The notes under the pieces were generated by a model. The model had not been told where the DNA came from and ran no database searches. It saw nothing but the letters and a program-made list of their open reading frames with translations. From Dysidea avara (lineage: Eukaryota > Porifera > Demospongiae > Dictyoceratida > Dysideidae), in assembly GCF_963678975.1 (NCBI RefSeq), contig NC_089272.1, positions 21,775,399 through 21,839,398 of the forward strand: a stretch of 64,000 bases of DNA. Direction: 5' to 3'. The translations under genes and the position numbers were made by a program. Below are positions 443 through 61,309 of this stretch, one piece after another (the stretch's first letter is position 1; every line of letters starts with the position of its first letter).

Positions 443-3400
443 ATGTATTATTATTGTGAGGGTTATTATTTGTGTAGGTATGTTTGGGTATGCAAGAGAA
501 AAGTTTTTGCTCTATACATATTGTTACTGCTTTTTATTGAAGGAGGTAAGGAGTTATTTCTTGATTAAATCTTGAAGCTAAATAAAACATGTACTGTATG
601 TATGAGTTCCTGTAGTTGGAATTACAGTAATTAAAAGCCATACTAGATTTGTACAAGTGACACTTAATATGGGTGGAGTTAACTACTACATTCTCAACAT
701 AACAACACTTTGTAGTTAATGGTTACTATTTAGTTAACATTGTATAGGATGACCAAGCCTGTAACTGATTACAAATTGATCAAATTAATCAAATGTTGAA
801 AAGGGTGTGAATACATGTGTACTATGATGTGGTTTAGAACTATGTTTCCTCGTAAGTGTTTCGGTAATACTGTATAATAGTGTATCTATGCACGTACTGT
901 ACAGCCAAATATTAAATCACGTATTTATTTATAGATGCAGGTTACCCAATAAATGTGACTGCTTGTATCTCTTATGATGCTACTGAAACTCCTCTTCTGA
1001 ATGCACAGTGGGAAGTTAGTAACAAATGTATTACTAGTAGTGTATCTAAAAATCAATATTTAAATTAAAGACAACGTGTATACAGTGTATCTGTGTTAAT
1101 GCTGATATGTCTTATATGTCATAGGATTCTGGAATTACTGGAACAGTTGTTTCTGTGTTTATATTTTATTCAGTCAATGGAGGGACTGAGAAGATTATTA
1201 TTACACCATACCAAGGCTCCAACATTATTACTGATGTTGCTCTGTCTGATGTTCAGTATGGCTCTGATATTTCAATGCAAGTCTCAGTACGCAGTAATTC
1301 TACAACATCAGGGAGAAGTGAAGAGATCATAATGCGTAAGTGTTAAATGTTTTTCCTGTCTCTATATGAAAAGGGTTTCTGTATTTGGAAACTTATGTGG
1401 TTTGTTTTCATGAGCAATGAATTTGAGTATGTAGGTAACTATGGTATTGTCATAGTAAGTATAGCTGTATATGTGTACTTTAAATTAAACCATATCTACT
1501 GTAATTCTATCATATCCACATGTGTAGGTGCTAATCCTCTCTATGGCGTGATGTGGTCTCATTCTGAGTCAAATATATTGACATTTACTTGTGTGATGGC
1601 ATGTAGAACTAGTACAATTCGAGGCTGTGCAGTATTTTTATTTCACAATGTATCACACTCAACTCATGCCAGCCAGTCTGATCAATTATCAGGAAACTTA
1701 GAAGAAGTGGAAAGTCGTAACAGCACAATTCAATTTGTTAATGTATCATTAAGCAATCCTATTACTTACATTGCTGTAACCATACCTACTGATGTTAGTC
1801 CTGTACTTGGAGAACACCTAGAAGGCACTATTTCACTGGACAATTTTATCAGTTAGTTTCTTATTTAAGCGCATTGAGATACATACATACGTATATGTAC
1901 ATGGAAATTTTAACTAATAAAATGTACGTGTGTACAGTTAGCGTGACTGAAATTGTGTAATAACAGCAAAGTTTGTGAGTACATACGGTTATCAGGTCTC
2001 CTGAAAATCCCTTAATTTGACCATGACTAATAAATCTTATGTTTCACAGATGCGGCAGGTCAATGTTTTGGCAAACCCAAAAATAAATGTAAATCACATG
2101 ATCTCTTAAAAATTGCTACTATGACTGAATATTGTGCAAGCAGTAACAGGTATAGTAGCAAAGGGAAATGAAATGGAGCTCCAGCAATTTATTTCGGGAG
2201 GACTAGCTTTTGCACCTGTCAAGATTGAAATACTCTAATAAAACAGTCATATAAACTCTAACAAAGTAGTCAGTTGCAGCTGAAATAATTTGCATTTTTT
2301 GGCCTGTCGGGTCACTACTAGAGAGCAAACAATCCATGAAACATGTGATTAATTTGATATGGCATTAAAGGCGTATATACAAACAAAGATATGTGGTCCT
2401 CATGGTCAACCAGTGGATCAATAGTACCTGTTAAGGTCCAAGATACAGTAGTTGGCTTATATTTCTAAATGAGGCATGTATGGCATGGCTAATTGTCTAA
2501 TGACTGGTTCCATTAAATTCTACCATTTTGGTTGATATTGTGTATATCTCATATGGATTTCTAATTCTCCAGGTTCGACAAGTTCTATCAGTTCTTCCTC
2601 AACAGTTAGAGTGTTTACAAGTATGTTTACTTAATTTTTAAAATTCAAGTGAAATATACATTACTGTATTATGTAGCAGTAATTGGTGGCAGTGAAATGT
2701 CCAGCAGTCCATTATTACCTACCATATCTACAAGTATGTGTATTGCAAAGTATACATTATACATGTATGTGTTCTTATGTCTTATAGCAATGACTCAACA
2801 ATCTGGTCCAGTAATGGCACCATTAGGTATACATGTGCTGTACAGTATGTACTACTGACACATTCCCACAGTAACTGTATGTACAAGTTCTCTAATAGAA
2901 TGCACACTTCTTTTGTAGGTAACAATTACTTTAATAGAACACACATTGTTAAAGCAGGCGCGTGCTCACAAAGACCGTATGCTTGGTTTCTAAAATTAGT
3001 TTGGAAAAAGACATGTGTGCATGTGTATTTATGTCTGTCCACACACCCACGTGAGCGAAAATAAGTGTTCATTGTATGACTGAAGGCTATTTATGGACTG
3101 TATTGACGGTTAACTTTCTTATCGACTGTTTTTGTTATGTTCAATTGAATGGGATATGCCCTATCATCATAGCCACTTATATCTGTAACAGGCATTTAGT
3201 GACCGAAAAATAGTGAACCAGGCCTTGTAAACTACCAGAAATAGTACTTCTTTTCATAGTGAAGCTATATCAAGAGGAACAGCTCTAAATTTAGAGACTT
3301 TGACAAGAGAATTTGCATCAGAAACATATTAGACAAACTACAGTACTTGCAATTATAGAAAACAGTTGAGAATATATTACAGTATTGTATGGAATTTGTG

Positions 3401-6400
3401 TGCCTGATGTTTAGAAGTAGCTCATCAACTTGTTTGCAGGTGACAAGACCTCTAATAGAATGCACATTTGGTTTTCAAATGAATACATTTGGTTTGTACA
3501 TTCAGGTATGTGTAGTACATTCAGGTACATTCAGGTATTGGTCTGTTTCCTGTTGAGGTCATGGGTTAGCATGGGGGAGACCTACAGTAGCCACACACCT
3601 GTCTATACTGTCATGGTGACAACCAATAGTTTAAGTCACAACATGTGTGTAAAGATGTATACAATAGAATCAAGAGTTAATACTATTATTAACTCTTGAT
3701 AGAATGTTAAATATTTATCAATTTATGCAATGAATGTGAGTGTGCACATGCATGTATACATTTTTAAAAGCATTCCTGTTTGTCCATTATGTAGATATTA
3801 CTGGTAATTAATACTATTGACAGTGCAGTAGATATACTTTATTTTCTGTTCAGGGATATGAAACCCTGCTCAATTGCTGTAATAGAGAATGTACAGTAAA
3901 TCTACAGGTGCAACAAGTACTGTAAGATCTTCAACCATGAAAATACCTACAAGTATGTTTGTTTGATCTAAAGTGCTACATGTATATACATGGACAAGGG
4001 AGCATGATAACTCTGTAAACAGAAAAATTCAAACATATTAATGAAAAAAGAAGTGAAGTTTAAATTCCGTATTACAGATGTACAGTATGGGAGGTGTATG
4101 ACATTATAACTGCATGCTTATACCAGTCAAGTTGGGATAGTGATGTTGAATGGCACAAGTTTAGCAGGATAACCTTTCTTTTTTGATAGCAATGCTAGTA
4201 GTTGTTTTATTTGACTAGTTACATGTGGTTCAGCTCTATGAGCTCAGCTATGTATCCTATTGAAGTAATTTACCTCTTTGTAGGCTAATAGTCTGCGGAC
4301 AAGGGGGTAGGACAAACCCATGTGAATGCGTAATAATGTTGCACAAGTACCTGTACAAAAGGGCTCTACAGGACTCGATAAATACTTTGGTTCTACCTAG
4401 CTAGTTAGTTGTTTGCAATGGTGTGATTCACAAGTGGAAAAATGCTGCCGTAATGGAGTAGGGCCACTCCAAATGAGACTGTAGTTTCCTGTCCTCTACC
4501 CACATCACATCATGTCACCTGCATTGGTATGTCATTCCTGTGTTGCTATATACTATAACTCTAACTTCCCATGCATGGAGCCTTCCATTTTGCATTATAT
4601 TGCTAAAAGTCACAATGAAAACCTAAAAAGAATAAATATTCTAATGATTACTAGCTAGGGTTAGCTTACAAAGGAGCCGGTTTCATGACTTTGAAATCCA
4701 CTGAAATTGAGATATTGTAATAGAGTTGTCACATCTAATAATGAAGAGTGATGGTAAGCCTCCCGCCTGCACTAAATGTTGAAAACATCAGGATGGGAAA
4801 CTACGTTCTCATTTGGAGTGGATTTATAATTATGACAATGTGTGGCGGTCATGACTTTCACATCAACAGTGAACAGTCATCATCATTACAATACAATTGT
4901 TATTGTTGTACAATCTATTACTTTCAACAGGTATTGTATAGCCTAAAAATTTTGAGGTGAAAATTTTCACTGATTTTGAGTTCTCGTGATCATGGTGTTA
5001 ACAGCAAAAAATTTACCCTTAAATATTTAGACCTCCATATATAGTCCAAGGGTAGTCACTTCCATGCCACCAGTTGATACACTTGCAACTGGGATCAAAA
5101 ATTTTCTTTGTCAAGTTATTCCTTGATCACTTGATTTAACCACAGAGCCTTGATTATTGATCGTCAACTGTAAAAACCTAGTAAATTCTTGTGTTACCCC
5201 CCAAAAAACAGCTTTAAAAAGTGCTTGATTCTTACGTTGGCAGGCGTCTTGATTGCTTGATTCACTGTACAAAAGCCCCTTGATCACTTCATTGAATCTT
5301 GACCCCAGTCAATAAATAGTACAGAAGTGATTACCCTTTGTAGTTTAATAATACAGTACATTTTTTTGGGATTGATTGCAAATTCACAAAAAAAATTTTT
5401 ACCTACATTTATCAACCTTGAATTTTTTGCTTTTCAGCTATACAGTAGTATGGCTACGTTTACAGTGCTTTGCATGTTGGTTGTCACTTGTATACAAAAA
5501 TTCTGAATAGGACACAGGTGAAAACCAACCAATGATAGGTGGCCAGACGTTTTCACGTAGTATCACGGAATTGTAATTGACAACTGTCTTGTAATCTACT
5601 GTAATAAAAATAGTTATGCTAACACTTCATAGTGCACATGGTCTTGTCCTACCCCCCTGGTCTGTGGCAGGCACCACCACGATCAATCACCCAAGCTACA
5701 GTAATACTGGACTCTTACTGGCTGGGTGACCAATCATCCCTGCCAGTAAGAGTCCACCCTGGATTCATTTTAAATATACCTCACAACTTCGATGATGATA
5801 TGTTTGTTGATATGAATGGACAAGTCCTAGGGATATACGGAAATATGTTTTCTAAGTGCACAATTGATTGTGCGTTGTGAGCAAATTCAATTGCTAGGAG
5901 CCTACAAGTAAATGTACTATTACAAACTAACACACGAGTTCCTTCATTAAGTTAATTTGTGTGTATGGTGTGTTAGTATTTTGTGTAGTTGATTGCGAGT
6001 CATAGAACCATGGCTACTTCATCACCCCTCATTCTTCAGATAAGGGGTGTACAGTATATACTGGAGGTGTAGTAAACTTGTTATATCTGTAACTTCACAT
6101 GGTATGTTAAAAGTTTGCCCAAAACAGTTGATAGTGTACAGAGTTACCAAAGATTCTCGGGCACACTGCTAATCAATGCAAATTGATCATTTTTTGTTGA
6201 ATAAATTGATCATTTTTTGTTGCAAATTGACCACGCATGTAGTCTATTAGAGTAATTAGGTGACTGCTCTGTTAGAGTATCTTGATTTCGTGCACTCCCA
6301 GCACTGATTCATGCAGTATTCCATTCTTGCACAACCTTTAGCACAAATTCTAGTAAATCAAGGCAAAGTAAGTTGGCTAATGACTACAACAGTTGTTTTA

Positions 6401-9400
6401 CTTTAGCAAATGGGCATTGGGGGGAACTGCCCTTCCACTTCTAAAAGTGGAGGGGAGTGGGGGAGGAGTTGCCCCCCTTGTCCCCCCATATCTCCACTCC
6501 TTATATCTCTGCCCCTGGCCAAATTTTATCATGATTATCGTGATCATTGCCTGCTCAGCTGTAGTAATGGAAATCACTAAACACCAGGGGCATAGCTAGA
6601 ACCTAGGCCCAGGTCCAAGCATCAATAACCGTACATTATTATATAAACGTAAAGATTGAGATGTACTCTTATGGAACAATCACCCTAATATAGCAGCTGG
6701 GCAAATGTAGCTGCTCTAATAAATTGCACCTAATGTTCAATATCAGAGAATCTAATGTATTAACAATTTCCTGTATTTAGCAGAAAACTTGCTATAAAAT
6801 TCAAGATTGGGATACCTGCACAATAATTGCTGATTTCGATTACTGACTAGTGTTGATTATTTCCATAATTATCACAATAATTGCCCATCCCTACTGCAAT
6901 TTACGTACAATGATGATATAATGTAGGTGCTTAATAGTCTCACATGAGTATGGTTGCTATGGCACTAGTATTATTTGAGAGAGTGAATCTACAGAATTTA
7001 TAAACCCTCATGAGTGCAGCTATGGCACTACAAAAAGCCTGAGGGCTTTTTCTTTAACCAAATTGTGTCATTAGTATAATTACAGTACTTCCTTCATAGT
7101 GTAATATTGCTTACCACAACTTGCAGTTGCCATTGATTCCTGTACAAAAATACATTTTTAAAGGTGAAAATGTTTTGTACTACTGTATATGACTATCGTA
7201 TATGCATCCCAAGTTTCTTTAGATGTTAGATGTGGTCTTCCTTTTTCATGAAAGCTTTGTCTTGTTGCATTTTAACAACCCGTCTTTAAGCTATAGAAGT
7301 TGCACCAGATGGCATCGTTTAGCACTGTAGTTAACAAAGCCACTGGTGATAATTCTAGGCTAATGATAGTCACCGCCGTTCTTGCCACTAACAGCCATTC
7401 AAGTATAGCAAAAACAGCTTATAATGAATGACATACTGTGCCATTTGACCAATACACTGTTCCCAAACACTGCCAGTATCAAATGGTAATGTGCTAGTCA
7501 TCATCACACTTCAGAAGCCACATCGTAGACCGATTTTGTCATCACAGTCTAACTACAGCATTTCACTGCCTAAAATGAAAAGGCATATTCCATAAACTCC
7601 ACATTGTATCCATATAACTATTATTTAAGGTCCTGTCATACAGTACTGTATTGGAAATTATTGTTTGCAATCTTCTTTGAAATGTCTACTAAACCAACTG
7701 ATACTGCTAATGTGACAGTTGCAGTAGGAGTTGTAATTGGACTGGCAATTTTGGTAGCTGTTCTAATTGTGGCTATGGTAATTATGGTGATGATAATATA
7801 CAAACTGCACTGCATTCAACTTACTGGTAAGTAAAATAAGCATGAGAACAAGTAATATGTTGTATGTATTACGTAAATTTCTACAGGATATTTAGACCCA
7901 AAGTCCCTTAAAATGTAAGTTTATGCCATATATGCACTGACAATTATATGCATAATATAGTAACAGCTTAATTACGTACATTCTACACCCCCTGTATTAT
8001 ATATTTTGTTTACAGCAATGAAGATGCTCTTCCTAGTATTGTGCGTGCTCAAATGGTTTCTGTCAACAGTGAATCCACTGGTTTAACCAGACAAGCAAAT
8101 GACGGTGATGAAAAGAATTCACAGCCACAATCTGATTACTGCTTTACAAGAAATCAACAAACAATTGTAGGAAGACCACAAGAAAATTCATGTTGTAGTA
8201 GCAGGGAATATGATGTAGTAGTTGAACCACTGAAACATTCACCCCTGACTGCTAAATATTCAACACCTTCAGAATACAGTGGGCTTGTGCACTTTAAAAG
8301 TGATAATTTATCAGGTATAGAATTTTACGGAGGGTGCATTTTTTAATAATTTGTTTTTCAGTACATGGAAAACAAGTGTATTGCATGCACTACTATGCAG
8401 CTCTATGACAAAAAAGTTTATGCATGAATGTATGCAAAATTACAAATGGCATACAATGTCAGTTTACTTATGTGCATGCTTGTTAGTTGTTACTGTACAT
8501 GTGCGTGTAGATGCACACATTATTATTATTATTTTTTTTATTACAGAGACTGAAGTAGGGATTAAATGTCTACTAATATAGCTGTAGGCGTAGTATAGCT
8601 GCTGCTGTAATTGCATTATGAAATCCGAAGCTGTGGCAATATTTTTCGACACCACCTCATGGTCTATAGCTTATTCACTGTCATGGCTACTGGGCCTTTT
8701 GTATAGCAAATTTGTATAGCAAAAATAAGGTTTGAGACTGCAAAGTAGGCTGCTAAGGTTACTTTGCTAATTCAGGTGGCTGTTAAGGAAGGTTCTGCAA
8801 ATTCACCCTCTAAGCTTTTTATCATCATTTTCTCAAATTTATGGTACTAGCCAAAGTCTCTTGAATGTCTTGTACAGTACACAGAGTAAGTTTACAGCAT
8901 GTACATACAAGAAAATTGCTATTAATATTCAGTCATGTTGTATGCACAGTTTTCTTAGGCCATCCACTTTCTGCACAATCTTTGCAATTGTTGACAAACT
9001 TTGTAGTGTCTGTGTGTTACAATCATTTAATCAGATGTTGATTGTTTTTGTACAGTAACAAATTTGTCACCATTAAATCAAGAAAACTATGACCATTTGC
9101 AGTTCCAATCTCATGAATATGAGGAAGTGTTTCTCAGTGAGTAATCTGTTGAATTTTCTGTTATGAAATTTTAAATTTGAGTACAGGTGCATATATCATA
9201 TATATGCTAGTAATTATTTATGTAGACTGTATATTCTCTGTGCTTTATTGTGTTGAATAAGGTTTGTTGCATTTTTCTTACATGTAGATGACCATATAAG
9301 TAGTAAATCAGAGTCTACTTGTCAAGATTATGAATCATGCATTCCTGCTGCAAAATTTGGTAAGTGCTTGGTACTATAGTTATTGTGTTCATGGCTTACC

Positions 9401-9549
9401 CATAATAACACTGTTGATTTACCCATTATTGTACATATATACATGCACTGTTAAACAGACAAACCATGCAGAGTCTGAACTACATGTACTTAGGTATCAG
9501 AACTCTTCAGTTGGGTACTACAGATGATGTACCAATTACTATTATGTAG
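443..9549 (+). CDS. Orphan single-pass receptor with FN3-like ectodomain, S/T stalk and tyrosine-rich tail (receptor 1)
   Basis: Proposed exons: 443-545, 935-1014, 1125-1335, 1528-1851, 2573-2620, 2680-2733, 2788-2826, 3908-3952, 7644-7826, 7887-7914, 8016-8314, 9056-9136, 9288-9359, 9494-9549. All phases join without a stop, giving about 540 residues. Exon 1 ends in a hydrophobic signal-like run (VFALYILLLLFIEG). Residues about 35-131 (DAGYPINVTACISY onward) have the strand pattern of an FN3 domain. Residues 132-239 form a second Cys-containing module, and 240-301 an S/T-rich stalk. The membrane helix is at about 327-354, followed by a basic YK. The tail holds REYDVVV, AKYSTP, SEYSGLV (an ITIM match), ENYDHLQF, HEYEEVF and QDYES. 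Exon order and phases match the paralogue at 13631. Uncertain points are the start (ATG 377 is in the same frame), the TM-exon acceptor (7719 also keeps frame) and the last exon (9459-9478 also ends in a stop). The ligand is unknown; phosphotyrosine signalling is inferred. Confidence 0.65.
4939..5045 (+). repeat. Dispersed repeat, copy 1 (AGCCTA...TTTAGACCTCC family)
   Basis: This stretch aligns by eye with 60581-60685: both begin AGCCTA, pass through TTTTGAGG and CAGCAAAA, and end AAATATTTAGACCTCCA. It lies in the long intron of receptor 1. The rest of that intron (3953-7643) shows no convincing exon, only AT-rich sequence and small repeats. Confidence 0.5.
5709..5755. repeat. Short perfect hairpin
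   Basis: GGACTCTTACTGGC at 5709-5722 is followed after 19 bases by its exact complement, GCCAGTAAGAGTCC, at 5742-5755. It is intronic in receptor 1 and could form a small stem-loop. Function unknown. Confidence 0.6.
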
Positions 9550-10106
9550 GGAACTGTTTCAACAGCAGACACTCTAATATCATTATGGTGTTAGCTAAGA
9601 GTTCAGGCCTTCTTATAACAGATATCAGTGCACTGCCATCATAGTAATTGCAAGAACTGTTTCAGCACTGCAAAAAAATTAGCCTCTGCATATGTACATA
9701 TCTTCTCATCACATGTATGCAAGATTCCTCTTTTGATTTGACAATTTTCTAGACCAAATTATGATCTGATGCTTGACTGCTCGTGCTGTTTCTAGTTGGT
9801 GCATAAATGTGATGATTCTATCCAATAAAAATAGCTTACTGCTACTATAATTCATGAAGTGCATACACATTTTTTTTGTGGTAAAATTTATAAAATACAG
9901 TATTATGATTCGTTTCTTTCAATAGTTTGAAGATTTTGGATCATCATGCAAAGTTGAACATGCTAATACCGATTAATGGATTTAGCAAAAAGAACTTCAT
10001 GATTCAGTAGATAGTGTTTATTAAACATAATTTACCCTGTTGAATGCCATCATGTATGTCTTATTGTTACTAAGATCAAAGGAGATAGGTTGAGCTAGGC
10101 ATTGTG

Positions 10107-10144
<38 letters not shown>

Positions 10145-12690
10145 GTGATACTGTAATTAATCAACATTAACAGTGAATATGTTCCAAGCTAGGGAATCTG
10201 GCTGAAGCTACAGTATATTCTAAAAGTGGGACAATAGTGTAAATAGTGTAGCTAAAGTACTGTACTTTGCCTTTAAAAAAGTAAAATACGAAATAAATAA
10301 TCAGAATCACCTTGTACATGTCAATGGCCTGTAATGCATGTAAAAGATTAATGCGTTGATTCTGAAATAAAGAATAATACAATGTAGCTACCAGAGCAAC
10401 TAAAAAGCAATGTCATTAATTCAACAATGCCATGAGAAAAAAATTATACTTTATAAATGGAAGTATTTTAACCAGCACAAATTTTCTATCTAAAAGGTAA
10501 AGCTACAGTGAACAATGCCTCAAACATAATACACTTGGAAAAGTTTTGCTTAGAGACTTGGGAAGAGTTTGGTACAATGGTAGCTTAAGTTGTAGGTGTT
10601 ATGTAAAGTGTGGAATGCCTGTTTCTTGTTAATAGTCATTTTAATAATCGATGTCAGTGTATGATGTTATCTTTATTTTTCAACATATGACTATATCCAA
10701 AAGCACACTATTATGTACATAACTACTAGTACATGCTCAAATATACTTGTAACAGTATTACATGCATAACTACAATATGTAGCTTTATACATTTGTAGAT
10801 AAATTAAACAAGGTACAGTATACTATAAATTTCATTCTACTTTGGAACTTTAAAGTGCTAGACAGCCGTAGTTCACTGATTAGGTAATTTGTAAAATATC
10901 TCAAAAGAGCTGTCTACAAAGCATATAATTAGAGTATTGTTTATCTAATGATGTTTTGGAGAAAATGCAGATATGGGCTATAAAGTTAATCAAAGGTTTT
11001 GGAAGACTCTTATCAGAGATTAAATAGCATGTACGCCTTATATTATTGTCGTCAATACAGAAGTCTTGTCAATGATTTTGAATGAATGTTGTGATATAAA
11101 CCTTACTGAGATTTTAGTTATTACATAAATTCACATGCCAGGTTAAATGTTTGATCAAATTTCTCTGGAAAATTACCCAAGGAGTAGTAGTCTCAACAAA
11201 CGCTATCAGTTTTTTCAAAGCAAAATTGACAACTATTGGAACAGTTGTGTGAATCCAATTTAGGGGAAGACACATACCCCTATACCCAAAAAGTAAGATA
11301 CTTTAATAAAGAGACCAGTCAAATATTCTAATAGAACAGTCACCTCATTAAACCACTATTAAGAATCCACAGTAATTGAGTATGAAAGTTTGTAACTGCA
11401 GCACCATCCCATGGGCACATTTAGCCTGCTAGAAAATGAAATGCACATAATCTTTTAAATGCCACTAGTGTTACTCATGACTACAACTCTTGATCAATTT
11501 TCTTTTAATGCTGTGATACAAAAACTTAAACTCTTGATTAAGAATTGAGGTTTTTGATCACTTAAAAGTAGAAAACTATAATAATTATGATTTGGATATT
11601 TGCATAATAATTTCAGTAATAATATTGATCATGAACTACTAGTTTCTGGTGGGCGTGTAGCCCTCAGACCCCATGCTGTGGAAATTAACAGGACGTGAGT
11701 ATGAACAATGGCTTATAGCATGACCACAGATTTATAAACCCTAGCTAGGTACAGTAAAAAAGCTCAATAGACATTTTCAGGGACTCCTGTTACTATTACT
11801 AATCGTAAGACCTCTGGATCAGAAGAAATCTATCCTTCAAAACAAATTAAACTTAAACTAAGGGGCAGGAAAACCCAGGCCATATCTGCAAACTTTTCAT
11901 AACACCTGACTTAACCCCTCAGAACAAAAGGAGAACAAGGATTTAAGGCTTAAACTTGCACAAATGAAAAAGAATGAAACTGAAGTATGAAAAAACAACA
12001 CACAAAAAAAAACCGGCAGAGAGGGGGAGTAGACCTAACCACACTACCTTATCAAATGATTATTTTCTTCCCCCTGCATGGGATTACTGCATAGCTGTGC
12101 AGTAATATAACACCACTCATGATGAATGCATAGGACAATCAAGGGCAGATCCAGGCTTGGAAAGGGTGGTGCACCAGGGTAGTAGTAGTAGGTTTTTGGA
12201 GCAGGGGTGTGTGAAGCTAAGCTATTTCATATGTTTCAGGACTGAAAATTTTGATGTGTATAGAATGGTTTTAGTTCAGTTAGTTATAGCTATGAACCTA
12301 AAGAATGACATACAAAGGACCATGTGCATTTCACTAGCTTATTTTGTACATCTATTAGACGTTGTGTTTAGGACTGTCACTATGATACAACCAGTAGTGT
12401 AACATACTTAATAGACTGAAACCAGTCAAATTTACTCAATCCCACCTGAAAACCATCATTAAGATGTTCAAAACACACAATTACAAATACCTCAGACACA
12501 TGTGACTATACATGCAAAATGCACAGTACAATTAACCATGACAAGGAAGAGTACAAAAATAAACCTAAACATATAGCATCATGTACACGACGAACGCACA
12601 AACATTAAGAATGACTAACTAAATTATATTCTTAGCAGCTAAGTGTGTCCATGCATGGGATTTTTCATACTCATTGAGGAAATAGTGTTA
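9550..12690. other. Intergenic region, no gene recognised
   Basis: AT-rich intergenic sequence between the two receptor genes. An AATAAA near 9825 could serve the upstream gene. A (TG)n tract lies at 10110-10143. The motif TATTCTAATAGAACAGTCAC, recurrent in this window, is at about 11324. Near 12140, CAAGGGCAGATCCAGG resembles a decayed transposon end. No exon with a convincing frame and splice sites was found. Confidence 0.5.
10110..10143. repeat. (TG)n microsatellite
   Basis: Uninterrupted TG dinucleotide run in the spacer between the two receptor genes. Confidence 0.95.
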
Positions 12691-12692
12691 TA

Positions 12693-13264
12693 CCGTATGG
12701 AGGGAAACTTTGGCGCCGTTAAAATTTGGCGAATGACCATGAATTCGCCAAATTTTCCCCATCCAAATATTTTGGTGGTGAAGAAAACACGAGAGAAAAC
12801 AGCAAACCAAGCATCAAACTAATCAATTTTCTACTCGACCAAGGGATAGTGGGCCAGGCATGAAGCCAAGCCTGCCTCGACTACCTCACTAGGTAGCTAG
12901 TTACTGTACACGCGTGGTACTCGATTATCTATGGTGGTCGATGGTGGTACTATCCTCAAACTTCACCTCGAAACAGGCGTGACAAGTAGCGAGTCCTACC
13001 ATATTAAGTACGATGGATGTTCACTATTCCAAAGGGTGTAGATCTACTGTCTATATAGTATTACTTTTAGTTGGTAGCTGACTCCAGGCGCCGAACCGCT
13101 GAGAGGCGTGGCACTCCGCCAGTTCTTGCTTCAGGGCCAGGCACAGCGATTAGTAATCTAATTAATTTAAAAGGGCGTGCGCTTTGCTAACAATTGGCCA
13201 AATTTATTTCGCCAACAGTGATATTTTGCTTGATTCGCCCCTCCAAAGTTTCCCTCCGTACGGT
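12693..13264. mobile_element. MITE with long terminal inverted repeats and TA duplication
   Basis: The left end CCGTATGGAGGGAAACTTTG mirrors the right end, which reads CAAAGTTTCCCTCCGTACGG. Both ends are flanked by TA (12691-12692 and 13265-13266). The 572 bp element has no transposase. Subterminal ATTTGGCGAA and AATTCGCC motifs also mirror each other. A TA duplication with long TIRs fits a Tc1/mariner- or pogo-type non-autonomous element. It sits about 370 bp upstream of the receptor 2 start and could contribute to that promoter. Confidence 0.75.
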
Positions 13265-13512
13265 ATGTGGTGACCATTCTATTAGAGTATTTGACTGACT
13301 GCTCTATTAGAGTATCTCGATCATTTTTTGTAGGAAGGGGAGGGGGCACGTGCCCGCGGCTGACAGTGGAGGCGTGCTGTACATGTTTTACTATGACAGA
13401 CTGCTCTATCACTGAAGAGTGGACTCTAATGAATGCTAATTTTAAATAGTGAATGCTCATGGGTTCACCTACCTGTGGCCTAGACAATGTATTATGCCTT
13501 GCATGTTGTAGA

Positions 13513-13520
13513 TCACGTGA
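13513..13520. promoter_or_regulatory. E-box TCACGTGA upstream of receptor 2
   Basis: The palindrome TCACGTGA lies about 110 bp before the receptor 2 start codon, with a second CACGTG core near 13538. TCACGTGA is the preferred site of class-B bHLH-zipper factors (USF, MITF/TFE, Max types). A gene of this class is encoded at 35543 in the same window. Regulation is inferred from sequence only. Confidence 0.4.
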
Positions 13521-13630
13521 CAACTAACCACATTTAGCACGTGTATCTGGCGGAAACAATTTTCTTTCTGGCTTCCTTTATCAATCATAACACTGATACT
13601 TACGATCTTGTCAACTAAGGCAAGCTGAAG

Positions 13631-16600
13631 ATGATAAATATCAAGCTGATGATTTTCGTAGCTATACTTCTTTCAATACCATGGGCTACTAAAGGTACGT
13701 CTCATGATCATCTTAGCTATATAGCTATAGGAATTTTTATATGCTTTAGTTAGTCAGATTTGTCCCTTTTAAATAAAACTAGATGCAAAGCTAGCTATCC
13801 GGCCGGCTCTATATTGTTGGCACGATCTTACTCGGTCTTCACTGATAACTTTAATTCTGTGTGTTTATAATAGCTACTATACAACTTATATAGGGCAATT
13901 GATGTTGCCGGCACCAGAAAATGTCAGTGCTTGTGTGACATATCAAGGAAACAGAACTTTACTAAATGTGCGATGGCAGGTATGTCAGACTGCACTAAGT
14001 AGATCTTCACATGCAAGTTTTTTTCCATGCATAATACATCCATAAGCTGAAGTAAGATCATTCGTTATGTAACATTTAACTATGTACGTATATCCTTCAA
14101 TTTCCAATGCAAAATTCTAGTCTCTGTTTTAGGAAAAGTTATACAATGCATATACTTCTGCTTATGTATATGCTATGTATATAGCACACAGTAAATGTTA
14201 ATGTTCTTCAACATGCACAGCATAATTCATACACAAATACTGCCTGTATTTATTCCGTCTATATTTCTGTGTTGGAACTACCAGTCCAAAATTTTTACTT
14301 AGACTCACACAAAAAGCAGATCACAGGCCCCAACACTGAATAGCATTGGAGTGTGCATTTAATTATGGATTTGTGGTCTGTTTTGCCTTGGTATAGGGAG
14401 TTATTTGAATTATTTGTTTCAATACTGACTAAAGATGGAGTTAGAATAGGAACACTGTTATTTGCTGTGATGGTTAAATGTATGTAATAACTAATGTGGT
14501 TGTATGTGCTCTATTGTTAATTTTGTTATACAAAACAGGACGCAGCAGTCCACTTTATGTCAAGTGCAGCTCAACACATCATATACTATTCCTCTAGCAA
14601 CTCTGACTTCAGTGACAGTACAATTCAACCACTAGTAAACTCTGCAAACAACATAACTGGAATTGTCATTCCAAATAATCTGGATGGAGAGCAACTTCAA
14701 ATAAGAGTAGTACTTAGAGTTTTTGAAACAGATAGTGATGTCAGCATGACTACAGTACTTGGTAAGTATGCACTTGAATTTATGTATAAATAATACAATA
14801 CTATGCAGAATTCATATTCTAGTAATAGTTGACACTAGATACAGTATATGTAAAAATGTGTAATAACATACAAGGGAAACTCTATCATGCATTGCACCCA
14901 AAAAAGTGCATAATAGGCACAACAATGCCCTTATAATGAGTCAGTCAATGTATGGCTTACACTATGTACTATGCATAATATAATTTCTGTACAGGGATGA
15001 GTCCAATTTACTTGGCTTCTTATGAAGCTGTTAATGTCACTGGAATCCGTACCATTCTGAGACTAGGATTTCAGTTAGCATGTGGACTTGAAGATGTAGT
15101 AATGTGTGTTGTAAACATCACAAACAATAATGTAAGATTTCCTGTCTCTTCGTTAACACATGAGATCACAAATGATACTGACAACAGAAGCAATTTGTTT
15201 GATCCAACAAAAGTGTTTCTAAATTTTCCGAACATCACAATGGGGACAGACTATTTTGTTCATGTACAACTTCTGAATTCTGAAGGGAGACTTATTGGAC
15301 CTGAACATCAGAGGATAATCAACGTGGGAGTTCCTCGCTGTAAGTTCAATAGTCAATTAATATTTTATGGTTTATACATGCAGTTAGCTAATATAAAGTG
15401 TGAATGAACTCATGAAATTTACGATTAATAAATTAAACTATCATACAGCACAGTAGTACTGTGTACTATCATGGAGTTTTGGGCTTACTTGCCCAAAAAT
15501 ATCACTCTAAACTAATCTCACATTATGACAGTTTAGCAGTGTTGATTAGGCATTAATGTCGACCCCAGACCCTTCCAAAAAGTTTCTATGATTTTTTTAT
15601 TATTTAGCTGAATGTTATGCTGACTGACTAACTAATGCCTTCAGCCAAGAGTTTTTACCAATCACAGTATGTATGTACAATACGTACATCATGTACATCA
15701 TGGACTTACTTTCGTCCTCTAATTCTTTTTTGCTGCCAATGCAAGGTGTTGATTCATGACAGCATGATGTAGCTTCTCTGTGGTTATATTGACTTGCTAT
15801 CATGCTTATCAACCATATTTTCCATAGTAGCTGGATTGATTGTAGAGATACTTCTTTGTTTGTAATGTTTTGTATTGGGCAGAATAAAACTGCATAATGG
15901 CCACTTCACTTTTCAGTAATTGATTGTTGCGGCGCACGTCACAGATACAGAATTTAATTTTATGGCATGCCTGGTACCATTCTTTCTTTTAAAGTGGTAT
16001 AGCTAAAAAAGTAATGAAACAAGAGAGGTTGTTGATATACTAATGGACATTTAATCCCAAATTTAGGCATTAAAATTAATGTCCATTAGGATATCTGCAG
16101 GCATAGACACCCTTTCTTGTGTCATTGCTTTTTAGCAATTTCATTTTTTTTTCTTTAATCCCTCCCTTCTACTGTACTTGTGTATATTAATAGATTGAGA
16201 ACAGCAAATCACAGTATAATTATTTTGTATCATCTATTTGATTGTTAAAATTACTGTTAACAATTTCAAATTGTAAAGTTCAGAAAGCATACAGTATATC
16301 GTGTTCAAAGTAATCACCATCACACTACAATTACAGCTGTCAACACAATGCCCATACCACCTCCCACCAGTTCATCTGAAATTGTAACCACCTCAACTGT
16401 CGCTTCCACTACCACTCTGACTGGGTTTACAACGAGTATAACAGTCACTCCAATTGATCTTACAACTAGCACAACAGCTGCTATGACCAATCAAATTGAA
16501 ATTACCCCTACATCTTCAAGTGGTGGTATAGCAACAGGTAACTCTTACCTACATTTTAAACTATTATTACATACAGTACAAACATTTCTCATTGTAGTTA

Positions 16601-16879
16601 TCATATCTATAGTTACCAAATATTACCATTATATGTACGTACTTAGATTCAGATGGCTCTTCCAGTATTGGCATTGCAATCGGTGTTACAATTGGATGCT
16701 TCATACTGCTGGCATTATCGATTACACTGTGTATTGTAATAGTGATAATGAAAAGAAATGAGAAACAGAAAAGTAAGATAAAACTTTTTGCATGTTGAGT
16801 GCAGAGATTACATAATTCTATTTCTACACATTAGAGAAAAGGCCATCACCAAACAGGTATGCACAATGAGATTCAATTC

Positions 16880-16970
<91 letters not shown>

Positions 16971-18503
16971 TGTGTGTGTGAAAGAAAACACATAAAATTA
17001 ATTCTAAACTTGGACATTAATTTGATCATGCTGTTGTTAAAGGGCAAATTGTATTGTATTTCACACTTATGTCAGTGAACCCGTGTAGCTATTAATGTTC
17101 TAAGAAAATATTTTTAATGGCTTTTTTGTAGTGATGATAACTCTGTCCGAGACGAATCCTTTGTTTATGCTAACCGATTTAGCTGTAGCAGTACTTCAAT
17201 GCTTCAAAGCTCTACTACAGATTTAATACAAGCCTGCAATGGGAGACATGCATCAAAAAATCAAAAGCATGACTACAGTTTACCGCCAGATGCTAATTAC
17301 ATCCTTTATGAGGAGACTCCACAAGTACAAATCCCACCAAACAATGCTATACCATCTCATTATGAAACAGCTGAAAACCAAACTACACAGATGAAACCAT
17401 TTCTATTGAATGGACATTATGAAATGTCAAATACTGTAATGTTTGATGCAGCAGTGTTGGAAAACAGTATGACTGTAACTGATTACAGCGAACTTGTTCA
17501 CAATTCTCATCGAAATGGTATGTTTGCATTAAATGCAGGTGGCCATAATTAATTGTTTACAAATGTTTAATGTTTATGCTATCTTAGTTGCAAAGCAAAG
17601 CCATAGCTCAATTCTTGTATGTCTAGCATAATGTACACAATCCCTACACCATATAATGCTCTATGAACACTATATTGCTAGGTAATGATATACCTCCAAC
17701 TCCTATGGGAGGATATGATTATGATCAATTAGACCAATCATTGAGCAATCAGGATACAGTCGGCCCACACTATTATGATCCAGTTGCAAACAACGTTAGC
17801 CAACAACAACAGCAAATAAAACAAAGTTAGTACATACAACAGTAAAAAAGCACATTGATTATGCCATTAATATGAACGTAATATACAGGAGTGTATTTCA
17901 TGATGATGGTGACTTTTGGAAGCAAATACATGTAATTAGTAAACTTACATTGCACAACAACAACAAAAAAAAACTTTATCATTGTGCAAAATGTAGAGCT
18001 ACACTGCAGTATTGTATTGTAGATCAGTTTGTATTAACAGTGTTAATAAACTGAAACTGTAATTGTTTCAAATAGGTGATGGATATACTGAGCTACAAAA
18101 TTCAACCACAGATCATGATCAAAACAAGCCATATCAAGTGCTAACTAACTCCAATATCCACCCAAGACATGTAGTTCATCAGTATGAAGATGTTGATAAT
18201 GACAATGGTACAGATGACATGTATAGAATAGTACACTATCTTATTCTCTTGACTTAGGTAATTATTCAGAGCCATATAAGGGTAAGAAACTACCTCGGCA
18301 TGACTATGATCTTGTGGCAGGTATGCACACACTTACACTTTGTTCAGCTATTAATGGTTTGTTCACACAGGAGATGCAATTCCTCTACCAAAACGACCTT
18401 TTGTCAGGTAGGAATGTTTTCATTCAGTGTAGTTTTATAATACCAATGTTGTTACAGGGAGTACTCAGAACCTCGTGACACACTTAACATATTTATTGAC
18501 TGA
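13631..18503 (+). CDS. Orphan single-pass receptor with FN3-like ectodomain and 14-tyrosine-motif tail (receptor 2)
   Basis: Thirteen exons join in frame: 13631-13694, 13894-13979, 14539-14761, 14995-15339, 16337-16537, 16653-16772, 16835-16856, 17132-17517, 17682-17825, 18076-18207, 18258-18320, 18371-18407, 18458-18503, giving 622 residues. Residues 1-21 are a signal peptide (MINIKLMIFVAILLSIPWA). Residues 22-124 are an FN3-like module (ENVSACVTYQG...LLNVRWQ, then strand-rich sequence ending QIRVVLRVF). Residues 125-239 form a second Cys-containing module with several NxS/T sites, and 240-306 a T/S/P stalk. The helix is at 312-338, followed by KRNEKQK. The tail (about 340-622) holds HDYSLPP, SHYETAE, GHYEMSN, TDYSELV, YDYDQL, YYDPVA, GYTELQ, PYQVL, QYEDVD, NYSEP, HDYDLVA and EYSEP, candidate SH2/PTB sites including ITIM/ITSM-like ones. 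A PPTPM and poly-Q stretch are also present. No kinase or phosphatase domain is seen. It is paralogous to receptor 1; ligand unknown. Confidence 0.8.
15580..15955. repeat. Dispersed repeat, GCCTTCAG family, copy 1
   Basis: Shares blocks with 22725-23170: CTGACTGACT..ATGCCTTCAG, CATGGACTTAC, TTTGCTG..GCAA/GCGAA, and ACTTCACTTTTCAG followed by a GATTG/GATAATTG..GGCGCAC/GGGCACAC end. It lies in the intron between receptor 2 exons 4 and 5. The order of blocks is the same in both copies, so this is an interspersed element with no recognised coding capacity. Confidence 0.6.
16002..16136. mobile_element. MITE of the AAAAAGTANTGAAACAAG family, copy 1
   Basis: Left end GCTAAAAAAGTAATGAAACA mirrors right end TTGTGTCATTGCTTTTTAGC. 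The interior is itself a hairpin (TACTAATGGACATTTAAT versus ATTAATGTCCATTAG). The same end motif recurs at 23266, 27459 and 46416 with different interiors. It is intronic in receptor 2. Confidence 0.7.
16884..16980. repeat. (GT)n microsatellite
   Basis: About 97 bases of GT repeat with a single TA interruption near 16963. It lies in the intron between receptor 2 exons 7 and 8, just after a very short 22 bp exon. Length polymorphism here could affect splicing of that exon. Confidence 0.95.
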
Positions 18504-28527: not shown

Positions 28528-31019
28528 TTGACAATTGTTTCGAAGAAGAATAAGATTGGTGAAGAAATCAGGGAAGCAGAACAGTCAGTGCAGGAAACAG
28601 TAACTATTGTAAATGATGTGAGTATACCAACAGCTGTATCACTGGATGAATCGATAATTAATGATTATGATTCTACATGCAATTCACTAAACTCAACTAC
28701 ATTATTCGAAGTAGATGAAACACAAGTCCATTTGGAAACCAATTCTTGTGGTAGTGATTCTAGTGAAATTTCAGCTAGTAGTGATCTATCATCAAACACT
28801 GTAACAACCTACTGCAACATGACAAAAACTGTAGCACATCTAGTACTGCTACTGACACAGTCCATACTGGTGGATCAACTTTAGTTCCCTTACGACGTAA
28901 ACCCTACAAAACAGTCAGTACCTAAGGCTCCATCAGATATTGCCACAGCAGCAAACCTTTCACCTGTTCAGCCTATTATGAATTATTCAGTTACTATACT
29001 TCATGGGAAAAAAAGATCCTTTAATACACAATGGTTTAGAATACCAGTGGTTAGAGTATTCTAAAGAACAGGATGCAGCATTCTGTTTTCCCTTTCATCT
29101 TTTTGTTATTTCTGCTGGGTTAAAGAAAGGTGTTAATACAATTACAGAAATTGGTTACAGCGATTGGAAACAAGCTACTGGAGAAAGTGGAATGCTGTTT
29201 AAACACAACAATAGCAGCAGTCACAAGCAAGCTATGTCAACTTGGAAGGATTATATGACAAATTCCAAGAAAGGTTTACTGATAGATAATAGAGCACATA
29301 TGCAAAGACAAAAAGCTCATTGACCACAACAGACATTACTTGAAAACTGTTGCTCAAATTTTGTTACTGTGTACAAGCAAGATATTCTTTTCAGAGGGCA
29401 TCGGGAATTAGATCCACCGGTAAACAGAGGAAATTTTTTGAAGATATTTCATTCTATTGCTGAACATGATCACATTGTCAAAGAAAGGCTAGAAAATGGT
29501 CCAAGAAATGCTATGTACACTTCACCATGTGTACAAAATTTAATTATAACTATTTTTGGTGATACGGTTATGAATTCTATTTGTGATTGCATTAAAGAAG
29601 CTAAGATGTTTTCTTTTAGTTAATGAAGCAAGGGATGCCAGCAAGGTAGAGCAAATTCAATTGTTTTACATTTGCTGATGTCACAGGCTTACAGTAATTC
29701 ATGAACATTTTCTAACTTTTGTTGATACTGCCAGCCAGACAGCTGAGGGGTTATTTAATGATATCTTGTAAAACACCTAATTGGACCCACGGTGGATTGT
29801 TTCTCAATGTTATGATGGTGCTGCTGTCATGAGTGGGCATCTATCTGGAGTCCAAAGTCGTATAAAAGATGTTGTTGCACATGCCCAATATGTGCATTGT
29901 TATACACATACACTAAACTAAACTTGGTATTAGTTGATAGTGTGTGATTTTTGCCAAGTGCTTCCACATTTTTCTCACTTTTACAGTCATTGTACTGCTT
30001 TCTGTCAACCACAAAGGTTCATGCTATCTTTGTTAGTACTCAACAAGAACTACATCCCGATAAACAGTCTTATCAGCTACAGAAGCTTGTGAGACTTGAT
30101 GGACTTGCCGATATGCAGTTGCAAATGCTGTATGTAGAACATACGATGCCATTTTAGCTACTTTGCAAACTATAAGGGATGGAACAGATTCTGACAAAGT
30201 TGTGGAAGCAAATGGTCTGTACCATCAAATTGCCAAGTTTTCTTTCTTGCTTAATCTAGTTGCATTTGATAAAATTTTGACATGTACCAAAAGTCTATCT
30301 GATCAACTGCAAAGTCCTCAAATTGATTTTTCTCAAACTATAGATCTCGTGGTTGCTACAAAATATACCCTGAATGATTTCAGGACAAATGTTTACTGGG
30401 AAAAGCTGTTTTATTATGTTACAAGTATTGCAGACCTTCATAAAATACAAATAGAGCCTGAGACCACTAGGACCACACAGCAAAGGCTTCCTAGTTGAAA
30501 CAGGGATGGTGTTGTACTTGGAGACAACTGGATCAAGGGATAATTTGTCAAGTAGTGATAGCTACAAAATAGCTCTTTTCTTTCCTGCAATTGATACTTT
30601 TCTTTCTGAATTATCACAAAGATTTGATGAAAAAAACATGAATATTATACATGCCATCCAAGCATGTAACCCTCTTGGAATGAATTTTTTGCTGCCACAA
30701 GAGCTTAGTCCATTTGCTGAAATGTATGGGTTTGACAAAGAAATAGTTGAGATTGAGGCTAAACTTGCTAAGAAAATGTTTGATAAGAAGAAAGGCATTG
30801 ATACTTTGCAAGATGTATACTCCATCCTTCTTTCTGTGACGGATGCTTTTCCAGAACTACTCAAATTGGTAAAAAATATCCATGGCAATAGCTATAAGTA
30901 CTGCAAGTTGCGAAAGATCTTTCTCAACACTAAAAAGGATTAAATCACACTTGAGGTCAACTATGACAGAGCAAAGGATAACAGACTTAACAGTATTCCA
31001 TCAAAAGCGAGCTGGCTAG
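28528..31019 (+). pseudogene. hAT transposase, ZMYM1/TTF-zinc-finger type, broken
   Basis: Several frames must be joined, so the gene is dead. In order: an acidic Ser-rich N-terminus (28528-28884); the TTF zinc-finger region (GKKRSFNTQWF, then in another frame WLEYSKEQDAAFCFPFHLF, YSDWKQATGESGML, NNSSSHKQAM; 28990-29323); a DUF4371-type segment (DILFRGHRELDPPVNRGNFL, 29369-29623); a middle region with stops; and the C-terminal hAT dimerisation motif (CERSFSTLKRIKSHLRSTM, ending TVFHQKRAG, 30900-31019). The order and motifs are those of ZMYM1-like hAT transposases. The Cys expected after CFP is Phe here, a further sign of decay. Confidence 0.8.
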
Positions 31020-35335: not shown

Positions 35336-35542
35336 ATCCAAAAAGAGATCTCAAATTTGGTTTGTCGGCATGTCAACACATCATGATCACGTGAAAAACA
35401 GCCAATGAAAAAGCAGCTATCAATCGCGTGATTTATTCTCACGTGAAGTAGTAAACATGAGTTGAGTTGGTGTTGAATTGTACTTGATAAGCGATCAAAC
35501 GAGTTTTGTGTGAAGAAATATCCGCTCTTCTTCTTGGCTAGA
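35336..35542. promoter_or_regulatory. Divergent promoter with two TCACGTGA boxes
   Basis: Only 207 bp separate the start codons of the minus-strand coiled-coil gene and the plus-strand bHLH-zipper gene. The interval holds two perfect TCACGTGA palindromes (35387-35394 and 35439-35446) and a CCAAT box (35402-35406). TCACGTGA is the classic target of class-B bHLH-zipper factors, so autoregulation of the downstream gene is plausible. No TATA box is evident. Confidence 0.65.
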
Positions 35543-38500
35543 ATGAACTCCGATTGTAGCTCTCATTCTGATAGTGACTCACCAAAGGGTATGCATAGAT
35601 CGTCGGCGACGGGGCAATTACAACCAGGTGTTCAAAAGGACTACAAAGATGCTTTAGAGGCGCTAATCCACATGCCTACGATGGGACTGAAGTGGTCAAA
35701 TACGGTAGCCATGCACAACGCCATATGCTACCTTTCCGATGCTCTGCAGGGCGACGGAGAAGAAAGTGCCGCTTCCTCATCGGATGATCGCAGTTCTTCC
35801 CAGAACGAAACAGACGATTGCAAACCCGAGGAGCGTTGGGTGCCACTACATCTGGTGAAGCAGACAATAGAGCCAGCCAAAATGGATTATGTACTGACAG
35901 GCCCGTATACTTATCCTCCGGTAGCTATAGCACCTAAAGCATATCACTGCCAACAAACTAAGCAAGTAAATGAGAAAGAGCAAATGAGGAAGGCATCTCA
36001 CAATATAATTGAGAGGAGACGAAGGGAAAAAATCAATGAGTTGACACAGACATTAGCTACTATGGTTCCAGCATGCCAGCAAAGGGATGGCCTACATCCA
36101 ACCAGGGTGAGTAGATGATACTGCACCATAAGTGGCAAACAAAACTCATGTGATCTGGACAATAGGATTATATATAGGTGTCACATGATTTATAAAGTCA
36201 TCATGGGGCACAATTCACATGTATATCATTATCATCCAATTATACCAATTATAATTGGGTTGATGTATGGGCTTGTTTCAGCTGATTAAGGTCAGTAACC
36301 AGTGTAGAGAGCATGCACGTATAAAAATGTCACAGTAAGAACTAGTCACAAATTACTGCACTGCACGCATGTATAGACGGGTTGCCTTTTTAAGGCGTGG
36401 TCGTTTTGCCGTAAATTTTCCACATACTTTCCGAGTTCGCTAAGTCAAAAATGTATTACGGCTATTGGAGAAAATGAACGTTTCGGTTAACTTTAGCAAG
36501 CAAGAGTTAGCCAGCCTTCAGAAAAGAAAGTATGTTATAGAGATAAGTTCGAGCTATAACATATCCAGCGTGTAAGGTGAAGGCTGAACGAGAAGATGAT
36601 TTTCTCTCAATCTCGGGTTTTTGGAAAGCGATAAAACTCGCTGAAAACATTCTTTGTAAGACTTTGCTACTACTTAGAATGATAGACTGGATGATTTTAA
36701 CTCACCTTGTACCTTTGAAGAATCAAAAACGTTTATCAAACTATTTTAAAAAATGGGTTTTTTGTTGACTTCTTGACCAACATTGTAATCATGCGTAAAA
36801 CGGAAAGTCGCGTTTTCTCGCGTTACACAAGGGACACGCCCTAAATAGGCAACCCGTCTATAGATGGAAAGAATATGAAAGATGATAGTGGCAAATGACT
36901 GGATCTGCCAAAACCCATGCAACACGTTAGTGCATTTTTTGAGTTCTTTATTATCTGAAGTTTAAAACCTGTAATGTAACCAATGGGTTGAAAATGTTTG
37001 CATTGAAAGTTTGTAAAATGATGCCTAAGGGTAGATGTTGCACAGCAAAAAGTAACACAAATATCCATACAGTGTACTTGTGTTAATGAAGTAACCTGGT
37101 TGATTCAAAGAGTGCCTTGTGTAGTGCAACTCTCCAAGCACCATTAACACAATGAGTGCTAATGTCTGTGAAATCTTATAACCTATGTATTGAAGTTTTG
37201 CTATAGTGATTAATTAATTACACAGGTGAGCATTTTGAACTATCTGGATTTCACATAATCTTCTATATTTAACACATTACAAAGCAAAACATTATTTTGA
37301 AATATTTAGCCAAGATTTTCCAGTCCATTGTCCTATGTGTTGACACATGCACTTGGTACCACTGTGTCCCCTAATAATTGTAAATGTGCTCAAACTTTTT
37401 ACCTGTCATGTTACTATCAACCATAATGACTGTTTCAGTTTGCACAGGACAACCGACTATAAATCCTGTAACAGTTTACACTCATTAGCAAGCATCCTAA
37501 GAATCTTATGGAGGTTTGAGGCATGCAGTGTACTCGTGTCCATTATACTGAAATGTGCATAAGTAAATAAGCACTGATCAGTGTCCTTGTACTTTCAATC
37601 CTACATACAAATCTGTAACCAAACATCCCTCAAGCCAATTTCAAATCTCCAAGCATGGAAGTCCCAGAGAATCCACAAATTTACTGTACGTTTATCACTG
37701 GTGACATATGTATAATGGGAATGATTCGCGGAAGAAAACATTCGTGTATTTCGTGATTTTAAGTGCATTCGTGAATGTTTTCTTGCAAAATTTTTCCTAC
37801 AATCAAAAAAGTTTTTCTCATGGATCAGTTGATGTAGCATTCATGTAACAAGTGCATAAGCGGGTAGCTACTTGCTAATCTGCATGCGTGACGGTATAGC
37901 CAGTGAGGCGCAGGACCGTGGCGTGTGATTTGAACAGATTCAAACTTCAGTGACAGTTAAAAATCAGTGCTACTAAATGGAGCAAATATAATTGCAGCCC
38001 AGCAATTCTCTTTGCCGGAATGGTGTGTCTTACCCTCAGTTTTAGTGCCGCCCCCCGGCCTTTAAGGCTATAGGCATGCCTATCGTCCGCGCTCATTATC
38101 ATGAGTGCCTACTTCTCCAGCGAAATAGCGATCATTCATGGCTACTAGTATGCATAGTATGCAACATGTCAGTCAGCCATATAGTTGAGCGTCCCTAGCT
38201 ATCCAGAGAAAAAAGTTAATTCGTTGTGGGCGCGTACCCAACTTCATGCAATAAATCGCAAATGTTTTCTCACGAATAAGGAAATAGTAAATCATTCGCG
38301 AATGTTTTCTTCCGCGAACCATTCCCGTTATACAGTATATGATTTCTTTTTTGGTGGTAACATATACACTATACTTCCACTGAGCTACATGTACTGTATA
38401 CTCTTCTGTACTAAAAGATGCAAGAATATTTTGTGCAGCAGCTGAGTTGTAATAATGTTGTTCGTTGCTTTACTTTATAGAGTGCTTGTAGCAAAGTTAT

Positions 38501-61247: not shown

Positions 61248-61309
61248 CACATTACTCATGACTGGGATACATTGCTCACACCAGATAGAAACAATCAAAC
61301 ACCCTATGT

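Follow-up and report, generated by a model that had tools for sequence, protein, structure and literature searches.

In the sponge Dysidea avara, a 64,000-nucleotide stretch of contig NC_089272.1 (the window; positions 21775399-21839398 of this contig, hereafter C1) carries two forward-strand genes, gene 1 (443-9549) and gene 2 (13631-18503), which, judging from their sequences, we consider fairly probable members of a lineage-restricted family, expanded in tandem, of non-enzymatic, putatively tyrosine-phosphorylated type I receptors. The family is apparently undescribed so far, and no sponge family of this plan was found in the open-licence literature, judged by titles and abstracts. It may represent a home-grown equivalent of immune-type receptors. 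The original prediction, made from the letters of the window, had described a pair of receptors; both genes are confirmed, but they are not merely two, as they belong to an array and to a chromosome-wide family.

In both genes, the exons were picked by eye from the sequence, and their borders and reading frame were then checked by script. Gene 1 comprises 14 exons and encodes a single-pass protein of 516 amino acids, in a frame that runs to the stop, with AG/GT at every internal border and exon phases of 1,0,1,1,1,1,1,1,1,2,1,1,1. Exon 1 (443..545) encodes the signal peptide and ends in phase 1. The first ectodomain, D1, begins in exon 2 (935..1014), which carries the motif NVTACISY..LLNAQWE with the phase-0 donor GTTAGT, and is completed by exon 3 (1125..1335), homologous by BLASTP to exon 3 of gene 2. 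The second domain, D2, is encoded by exon 4 (1528..1851) and bears the signature AC-x7-C-x-V, recovered in the D2 alignment; this exon also has paralogue matches. Four stalk mini-exons follow (2573..2620, 2677..2733, 2788..2826 and 3908..3952, the choice of the last being uncertain), then the transmembrane (TM) exon (7719..7826, acceptor uncertain), a short juxtamembrane exon of 28 nt (7887..7914, phase 1 to 2) and the tyrosine-rich cytoplasmic exon (8016..8314, phase 2 to 1), which terminates in EYSGLVHFKSDNLS. The remainder of the tail is encoded at 9056..9136, with NYDHLQF and EYEEV, at 9288..9359 and in the last exon at 9494..9549, with the stop TAG. Hydropathy reveals an N-terminal signal and one TM only (windows over residues 295-339), and S or T accounts for 29 of the 63 stalk residues ahead of it. 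The stalk and TM exons are the least certain part of this model.

Gene 2 comprises 13 exons and encodes a single-pass protein of 624 amino acids, again in a frame that runs to the stop and with AG/GT at every internal border (phases 1,0,1,1,1,1,2,1,1,1,1,2). The signal peptide lies in exon 1 (13631..13694, phase 1), and D1 in exon 2 (13894..13979), which carries the motif NVSACVTY..LLNVRWQ with a phase-0 donor, together with exon 3 (14539..14761). Exon 4 (14995..15339) encodes D2, a predicted FN3-type sandwich with the same AC-x7-C-x-V signature. A Ser/Thr stalk exon (16337..16537, S+T 32/67) precedes the TM exon (16647..16772), a short basic juxtamembrane exon of 22 nt (16835..16856, phase 1 to 2) and a tyrosine-rich exon (17132..17517, phase 2 to 1) with the terminal sequence DYSELVHNSHRNG. 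Further tail exons lie at 17682..17825, with YDYDQL and YYDPV; at 18076..18207, with YTEL-x12-YQVL, spaced like an immunoreceptor tyrosine-based activation motif (ITAM); at 18258..18320, with NYSEP and DYDLV; and at 18371..18407, with PLPKRPFV. The last exon (18458..18503) contributes EYSEP and the stop TGA. Hydropathy gives an N-terminal signal and a single TM (windows over residues 310-345). On the 5' side of gene 2, ~0.57 kb of DNA (~12690-13270) is bounded by terminal inverted repeats that are nearly perfect (ATACCGTA[TC]GGAGGGAAACTTTGG), an arrangement that by eye resembles a miniature inverted-repeat transposable element.

The two genes share a phase series that covers the signal exon (1), exon 2 (0), exon 3 (1), exon 4 (1), the stalk (1), the TM exon (1), the short exon (2) and the tyrosine-rich exon (1), with four stalk mini-exons in gene 1 against one stalk exon in gene 2. 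Their ectodomains match by BLASTP with E=5e-6 and 26% identity over 160 aa spanning D1 and part of D2, a result that bears on the ectodomains and not on the tails. At the level of sequence, the resemblance is greater than chance. Thus, the shared exon order and phases proposed originally are borne out by the rebuilt models, their AG/GT borders and this match, and the first-domain motifs NVTACISY...QWE and NVSACVTY...RWQ stand at phase-0 donors just as had been described.

Paralogue searches covered one genome, the present assembly (550.8 Mb, 108 contigs). A query blended from sister D2 (exon 4) sequences gave 18 listed matches, 17 of them on C1 and the remaining one on C4 at E=1.3. Fourteen had E<1e-6, all on C1 and with gene 1 among them; three of these 14 are partial second matches beside a full one. 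Querying with D1-D2 of a gene at 22.26 Mb yielded a list of 15 matches. Ten have E<0.1, and every one of these lies on C1; weak matches (E 0.3 to 5) are located on C9, C14 and C8. Furthermore, a D1-type relative lies on C4 (E 7e-10). Reading of the 47 kb upstream of the window disclosed an array that shares the strand of genes 1 and 2 and runs head to tail, in which members A (C1 21.730 Mb), B (21.739 Mb), D (21.7527 Mb), E (21.7549 Mb) and F (21.7608 Mb) are followed by genes 1 and 2. D, E and F may each be a gene or may be modules repeated within fewer genes; counted singly, they bring the candidate loci to 16 on C1 and one on C4. The ectodomain exons of B have, by eye, the same phases as those of genes 1 and 2. 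Of the lineage-specific receptor family of the original prediction, the family itself holds, with a plan common to its members, many paralogues and no Pfam family over the cut-off; its restriction to the lineage has indirect support only.

Two short signatures accompany the ectodomain. The exon-2 pattern AC[VILM]..L[NQHDK][VIALF].W with a phase-0 GT donor after it, broadened to admit M once gene F had been seen, occurs at 11 distinct C1 loci. Across 111 kb (the upstream array plus the window, both strands), it has 6 matches, all in plus-strand family genes and each followed by GT, and it has none in the 129,879 bases fetched from other loci. It was not seen at 5 of the 16 C1 loci (A and those at 25.29, 36.975, 37.138 and 43.53 Mb), for some of which it may fall outside the fetched stretch; in the 22.26 Mb gene, the exon-2 donor is one codon further on. 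In the D2 alignment, A-C, C and V are invariant in 9/9 sequences, which were hand-chosen and include near-identical copies and a disrupted exon at 43.53 Mb.

The ectodomain is a two-domain D1-D2 unit, probably of FN3 type. D2 of gene 2 is predicted to fold as a seven-strand beta sandwich of FN3 type. The FN3-like character claimed originally is not evident from sequence and is supported by the predicted structure of this one domain. No Pfam family exceeds the cut-off in the gene 1 or gene 2 protein, where sub-threshold rows only appear; fn3 (PF00041) yields no row in either at E up to 10, though the filters discard most weak matches, and a PDB sequence search with the gene 2 protein only returned no match. 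Consequently, no kinase is recognized in either protein, in agreement with the original prediction, and neither tail, ending at the stops at 9549 and 18503, contains the cytoplasmic kinase domain of a receptor tyrosine kinase (RTK).

The tails are rich in tyrosine, with 9 in 187 residues in gene 1 and 18 in 283 in gene 2. Taking a hand-chosen juxtamembrane residue as the start of each tail and nine motif classes, with P values uncorrected, Y-x-x-[LIVMP] exceeds the shuffled expectation in gene 1 (6 versus 2.3, P=0.009) and in gene 2 (11 versus 4.4, P=0.001). Y-x-x-[LV] is likewise enriched (7 versus 2.0 in gene 2 and 4 versus 1.3 in gene 1), and Y-x-x-P reaches 4 versus 1.4 in gene 2 (P=0.04) and 2 versus 0.5 in gene 1 (P=0.07). 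NP-x-Y shows little or no excess in either tail, and there is one motif resembling the immunoreceptor tyrosine-based switch motif (P=0.15).

A more specific feature is Y-x-x-L-V-H, found in four of the six tails examined. In genes 1, 2, B and F, the tyrosine-rich exon closes with this motif, 7, 5, 5 and 7 further residues, respectively, and a split codon at a phase-1 donor. Its chance occurrence per shuffled tail is 0.0005-0.0025, shuffling whole tails for genes 1 and 2 and the first tyrosine exon only for B and F; these values were not planned in advance, since the motif was spotted after reading the tails. The B exon (21748724-21749103, same strand, downstream of the B TM exon) has TACAG as its phase-2 acceptor, ends at a phase-1 donor and was picked by eye from a candidate list covering all phases. 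In F, a TM exon of 117 nt is followed by a short exon (49 nt, GTAAGT, phase 1 to 2) and by the tyrosine-rich exon, which ends at GTAAGT in phase 1 and whose phase 2 start requires a non-standard AAG acceptor. The 22.26 Mb gene likewise has, by eye, a phase 1-to-2 exon of 25 nt. A genome query with the F tail returned itself and two weak rows only (E 0.6 and 7), so the tail motif is not traceable by ordinary search. The tails have mostly diverged, as originally described, yet a common Y-x-x-L-V-H was kept. Elsewhere in the 345 kb of fetched DNA (overlapping loci included), the motif is sporadic and partly spans stops. In the 22.26 Mb gene, a stray YLSLVH (minus strand, ~C1:22.2618 Mb, L070) falls past the TM exon and short of the putative tail exon; it stands in an unassigned frame and was counted as background.

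Selection on the ectodomain was estimated from a recent copy of the gene 2 ectodomain at C1:24.9217-24.9256 Mb (L062), which retains exons 1-4 and the start of exon 5 without the gene 2 tail. Over 234 codons of exons 1-4, leaving out a few codons next to indels in exons 1 and 3, the nonsynonymous rate (dN) is 0.067 and the synonymous rate (dS) is 0.192 (dN/dS 0.35; 0.56 for D1 and 0.32 for D2), and the compared exon DNA is 91.2% identical versus 73-88% in BLAST blocks with intron. These sequence comparisons indicate purifying selection, which supports real coding, and this pair shows no sign of rapid diversification. With its signal, D1 and D2, the partial duplicate may give rise to a soluble or a chimeric receptor; a different open frame, rich in Ser/Thr, is present ~4 kb beyond it. 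For six sister D2 exons taken from the 14 strong matches on C1, a pseudogene included, dN/dS is 0.23-0.9 in 14 of the 15 pairs and 6.2 in one, with 19 nonsynonymous changes to 1 synonymous (Fisher P=0.03, uncorrected and with hand-entered site counts). Diversifying selection is not claimed, as one pair in 15 is insufficient and gene conversion could produce the outlier. The role in cell recognition that was originally suggested stays conjectural, with purifying selection in the gene 2 pair and a hint of fast amino-acid change in that one pair of sister exons. At least two loci look disrupted: the sister D2 exon at C1:37.138 Mb (L022) has an in-frame TGA, that at C1:43.53 Mb (L025) has its halves in two frames, and both look decayed.

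Several observations weigh against a family of tyrosine-phosphorylated receptors. Acidic residues ahead of Tyr show no enrichment in gene 2 (P=0.29) and a marginal one in gene 1 (P=0.047); neither tail is enriched in immunoreceptor tyrosine-based inhibitory motifs (ITIMs) or in Y-x-N; and the one ITAM-like spacing of gene 2 is weak (P=0.056). By eye, Y-x-x-L-V-H is absent from the assigned tail exons of gene A and from the putative ones of the 22.26 Mb gene, and the tails are otherwise unalignable (B versus gene 2, E=0.089; B versus gene 1, E=0.37). Moreover, the short exon of B was not located, a CAG acceptor near the F tyrosine exon gives phase 1 instead, and the structure model of gene 1 D2 is of low confidence (predicted local distance difference test score of 38). 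The non-standard acceptor of F and the second disrupted sister exon make us slightly less confident of the receptor family and lead us to weight model error up.

If the genes are such receptors, D1-D2 would recognize a ligand that probably belongs to another cell or to the matrix; the tail would be phosphorylated in trans by tyrosine kinases, and SH2 or PTB proteins would dock at the phosphorylated sites. In this scheme, Y-x-x-L-V-H would serve as the docking site held in common, and the remaining tyrosines would be specific to each member. A genome search with PF07714, a model that also covers Ser/Thr kinases, gave 151 matches; kinase domains are thus numerous, with none on C1 among the matches listed. 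No tyrosine kinase was found in 10 selected open reading frames from the rest of the window, the remaining frames being left unscanned. The original proposal that these receptors feed tyrosine-kinase signaling is consistent with the real excess of tyrosine motifs and the abundant kinase domains; the link itself stays conditional, as Y-x-x-hydrophobic also serves as an endocytic signal, a further point to be counted against phosphotyrosine docking. A more far-reaching possibility, which we regard as tentative and rather unlikely, is an independently evolved immunoreceptor-like repertoire of an early-branching animal, in which chromosome-clustered, duplicating FN3 receptors would vary their ectodomains and signaling members would keep Y-x-x-L-V-H, as a phosphotyrosine docking motif peculiar to the family, plus private tyrosines for self/non-self or microbe recognition.

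Endocytic sorting is the main rival explanation. The proteins would then be adhesion or uptake receptors whose Y-x-x-hydrophobic sites act as clathrin/AP-2 sorting signals instead of phosphotyrosine docking sites, and both the Y-x-x-[LV] enrichment in the two tails and the fit of adhesion with FN3 domains and Ser/Thr stalks speak for it. However, tails with 9 and 18 tyrosines exceed the needs of an endocytic signal, and the excess extends, in gene 2 and less clearly in gene 1, to Y-x-x-P sites, which do not serve as AP-2 signals; on balance, we consider sorting unlikely. It is also conceivable that errors of our own produced one or both models, through chance splicing of unrelated frames, or that the genes are pseudogenes. 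The exons are by-eye choices from sequence alone, and sister exons are disrupted at 37.138 and 43.53 Mb, but 14 and 13 exons, each set in one frame with consensus borders, the repetition of the ectodomain phases in B and the purifying selection over gene 2 exons 1-4 make wrong or decayed models very improbable.

Descent from the same animal's RTKs, with genes 1 and 2 as kinase-less decoys or co-receptors, draws on RTK-like genes on C3 and C9 that share the Ser/Thr stalk, the single TM and a tyrosine-rich juxtamembrane part and then continue into a kinase. A gene 2 stalk/TM query matches these receptor kinases weakly (E about 1e-4 to 1e-2). These matches are nevertheless limited to the stalk, TM and flank, with no similarity detected beyond that region; D2 finds relatives on C1 alone save for the single weak C4 match; none of the listed kinase matches is on C1; and in the one C3 gene read, by eye, the exon phases after the TM differ from those of genes 1 and 2. 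We therefore hold this origin to be improbable and do not claim common descent: what is shared with the local RTKs is the stalk-TM-tyrosine plan. The RTK-like genes at C3:47.6-47.73 Mb (L046, L051) have tyrosine-rich juxtamembrane exons (NDYE, SDPGHSEEAIYA), and one has a long tandem-repeat Ser/Thr stalk of ATTSSPVM repeats. Class I/II cytokine receptors, signaling via an associated JAK-type kinase, are likewise built of FN3-type domains with a kinase-less, tyrosine-bearing tail. They are marked by the cysteine pair C-x9-10-C-x-W in D1 and WSXWS in D2. Both patterns are missing from the two proteins, neither has a Pfam cytokine-receptor hit, and other FN3 domains score equally well against the predicted gene 2 D2 fold; membership of this class was rejected, and homology to it is the least probable of the explanations.

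Other features of the window lie downstream of the two genes. On the forward strand, DUF4371 at 29324-29620 (E 7e-10) is likely, we assume, a remnant of a hAT-type transposase. On the same strand, a basic helix-loop-helix domain (PF00010, E 1.2e-7) at 35477-36115 is followed by a leucine-zipper-like exon at 38481-39077, and together they resemble a USF-type factor. At ~61221-62790, open frames mirrored on both strands point to a large inverted repeat, which may be a mobile element. An immunoglobulin (Ig) domain at 63761-64000 of the forward strand (PF13927, E 3.5e-6, slightly below the cut-off) continues past the window end and perhaps belongs to another surface receptor.

Non-catalytic tyrosine-phosphorylated receptors serve leucocytes, and their use by early-branching animals is, to our knowledge, an open question. 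For this, a family that is clustered and has a common tail motif provides a testable set, in which one peptide motif can be tried against SH2/PTB proteins, and the gene array can be typed for individual variation in grafting or symbiont-recognition work. It also exemplifies a receptor family in which the exon phases and a single short motif persist although the rest of the tail has diverged past alignment.

Among known systems, the FN3 adhesion molecules MDGA1, NCAM and L1CAM carry Ig-FN3 strings, unlike genes 1 and 2, and resemble them in fold matches to gene 2 D2 only, at 6-11% identity in the fold alignment. The working plan is best supported as that of the non-catalytic tyrosine-phosphorylated receptors, or immunoreceptors, by analogy. 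These receptors have diverse ectodomains, and their tails bear conserved tyrosine motifs that Src-family kinases phosphorylate (PMC11399299). The likeness extends to the lack of an enzyme, to tyrosine motifs in the tail (or on an associated subunit) and to the existence of many families (PMC11399299). Genes 1 and 2 have a single TM by hydropathy and no enzyme domain by Pfam, and their conserved tail motifs are the Y-x-x-[LIVMP] excess and Y-x-x-L-V-H. They differ in lacking ITIM enrichment, in having a weak ITAM-like spacing in gene 2 only and in the identity of their common motif. Finally, they are FN3-type rather than Ig-based and are known from sequence alone, whereas the non-catalytic receptors are described for leucocytes (PMC11399299).

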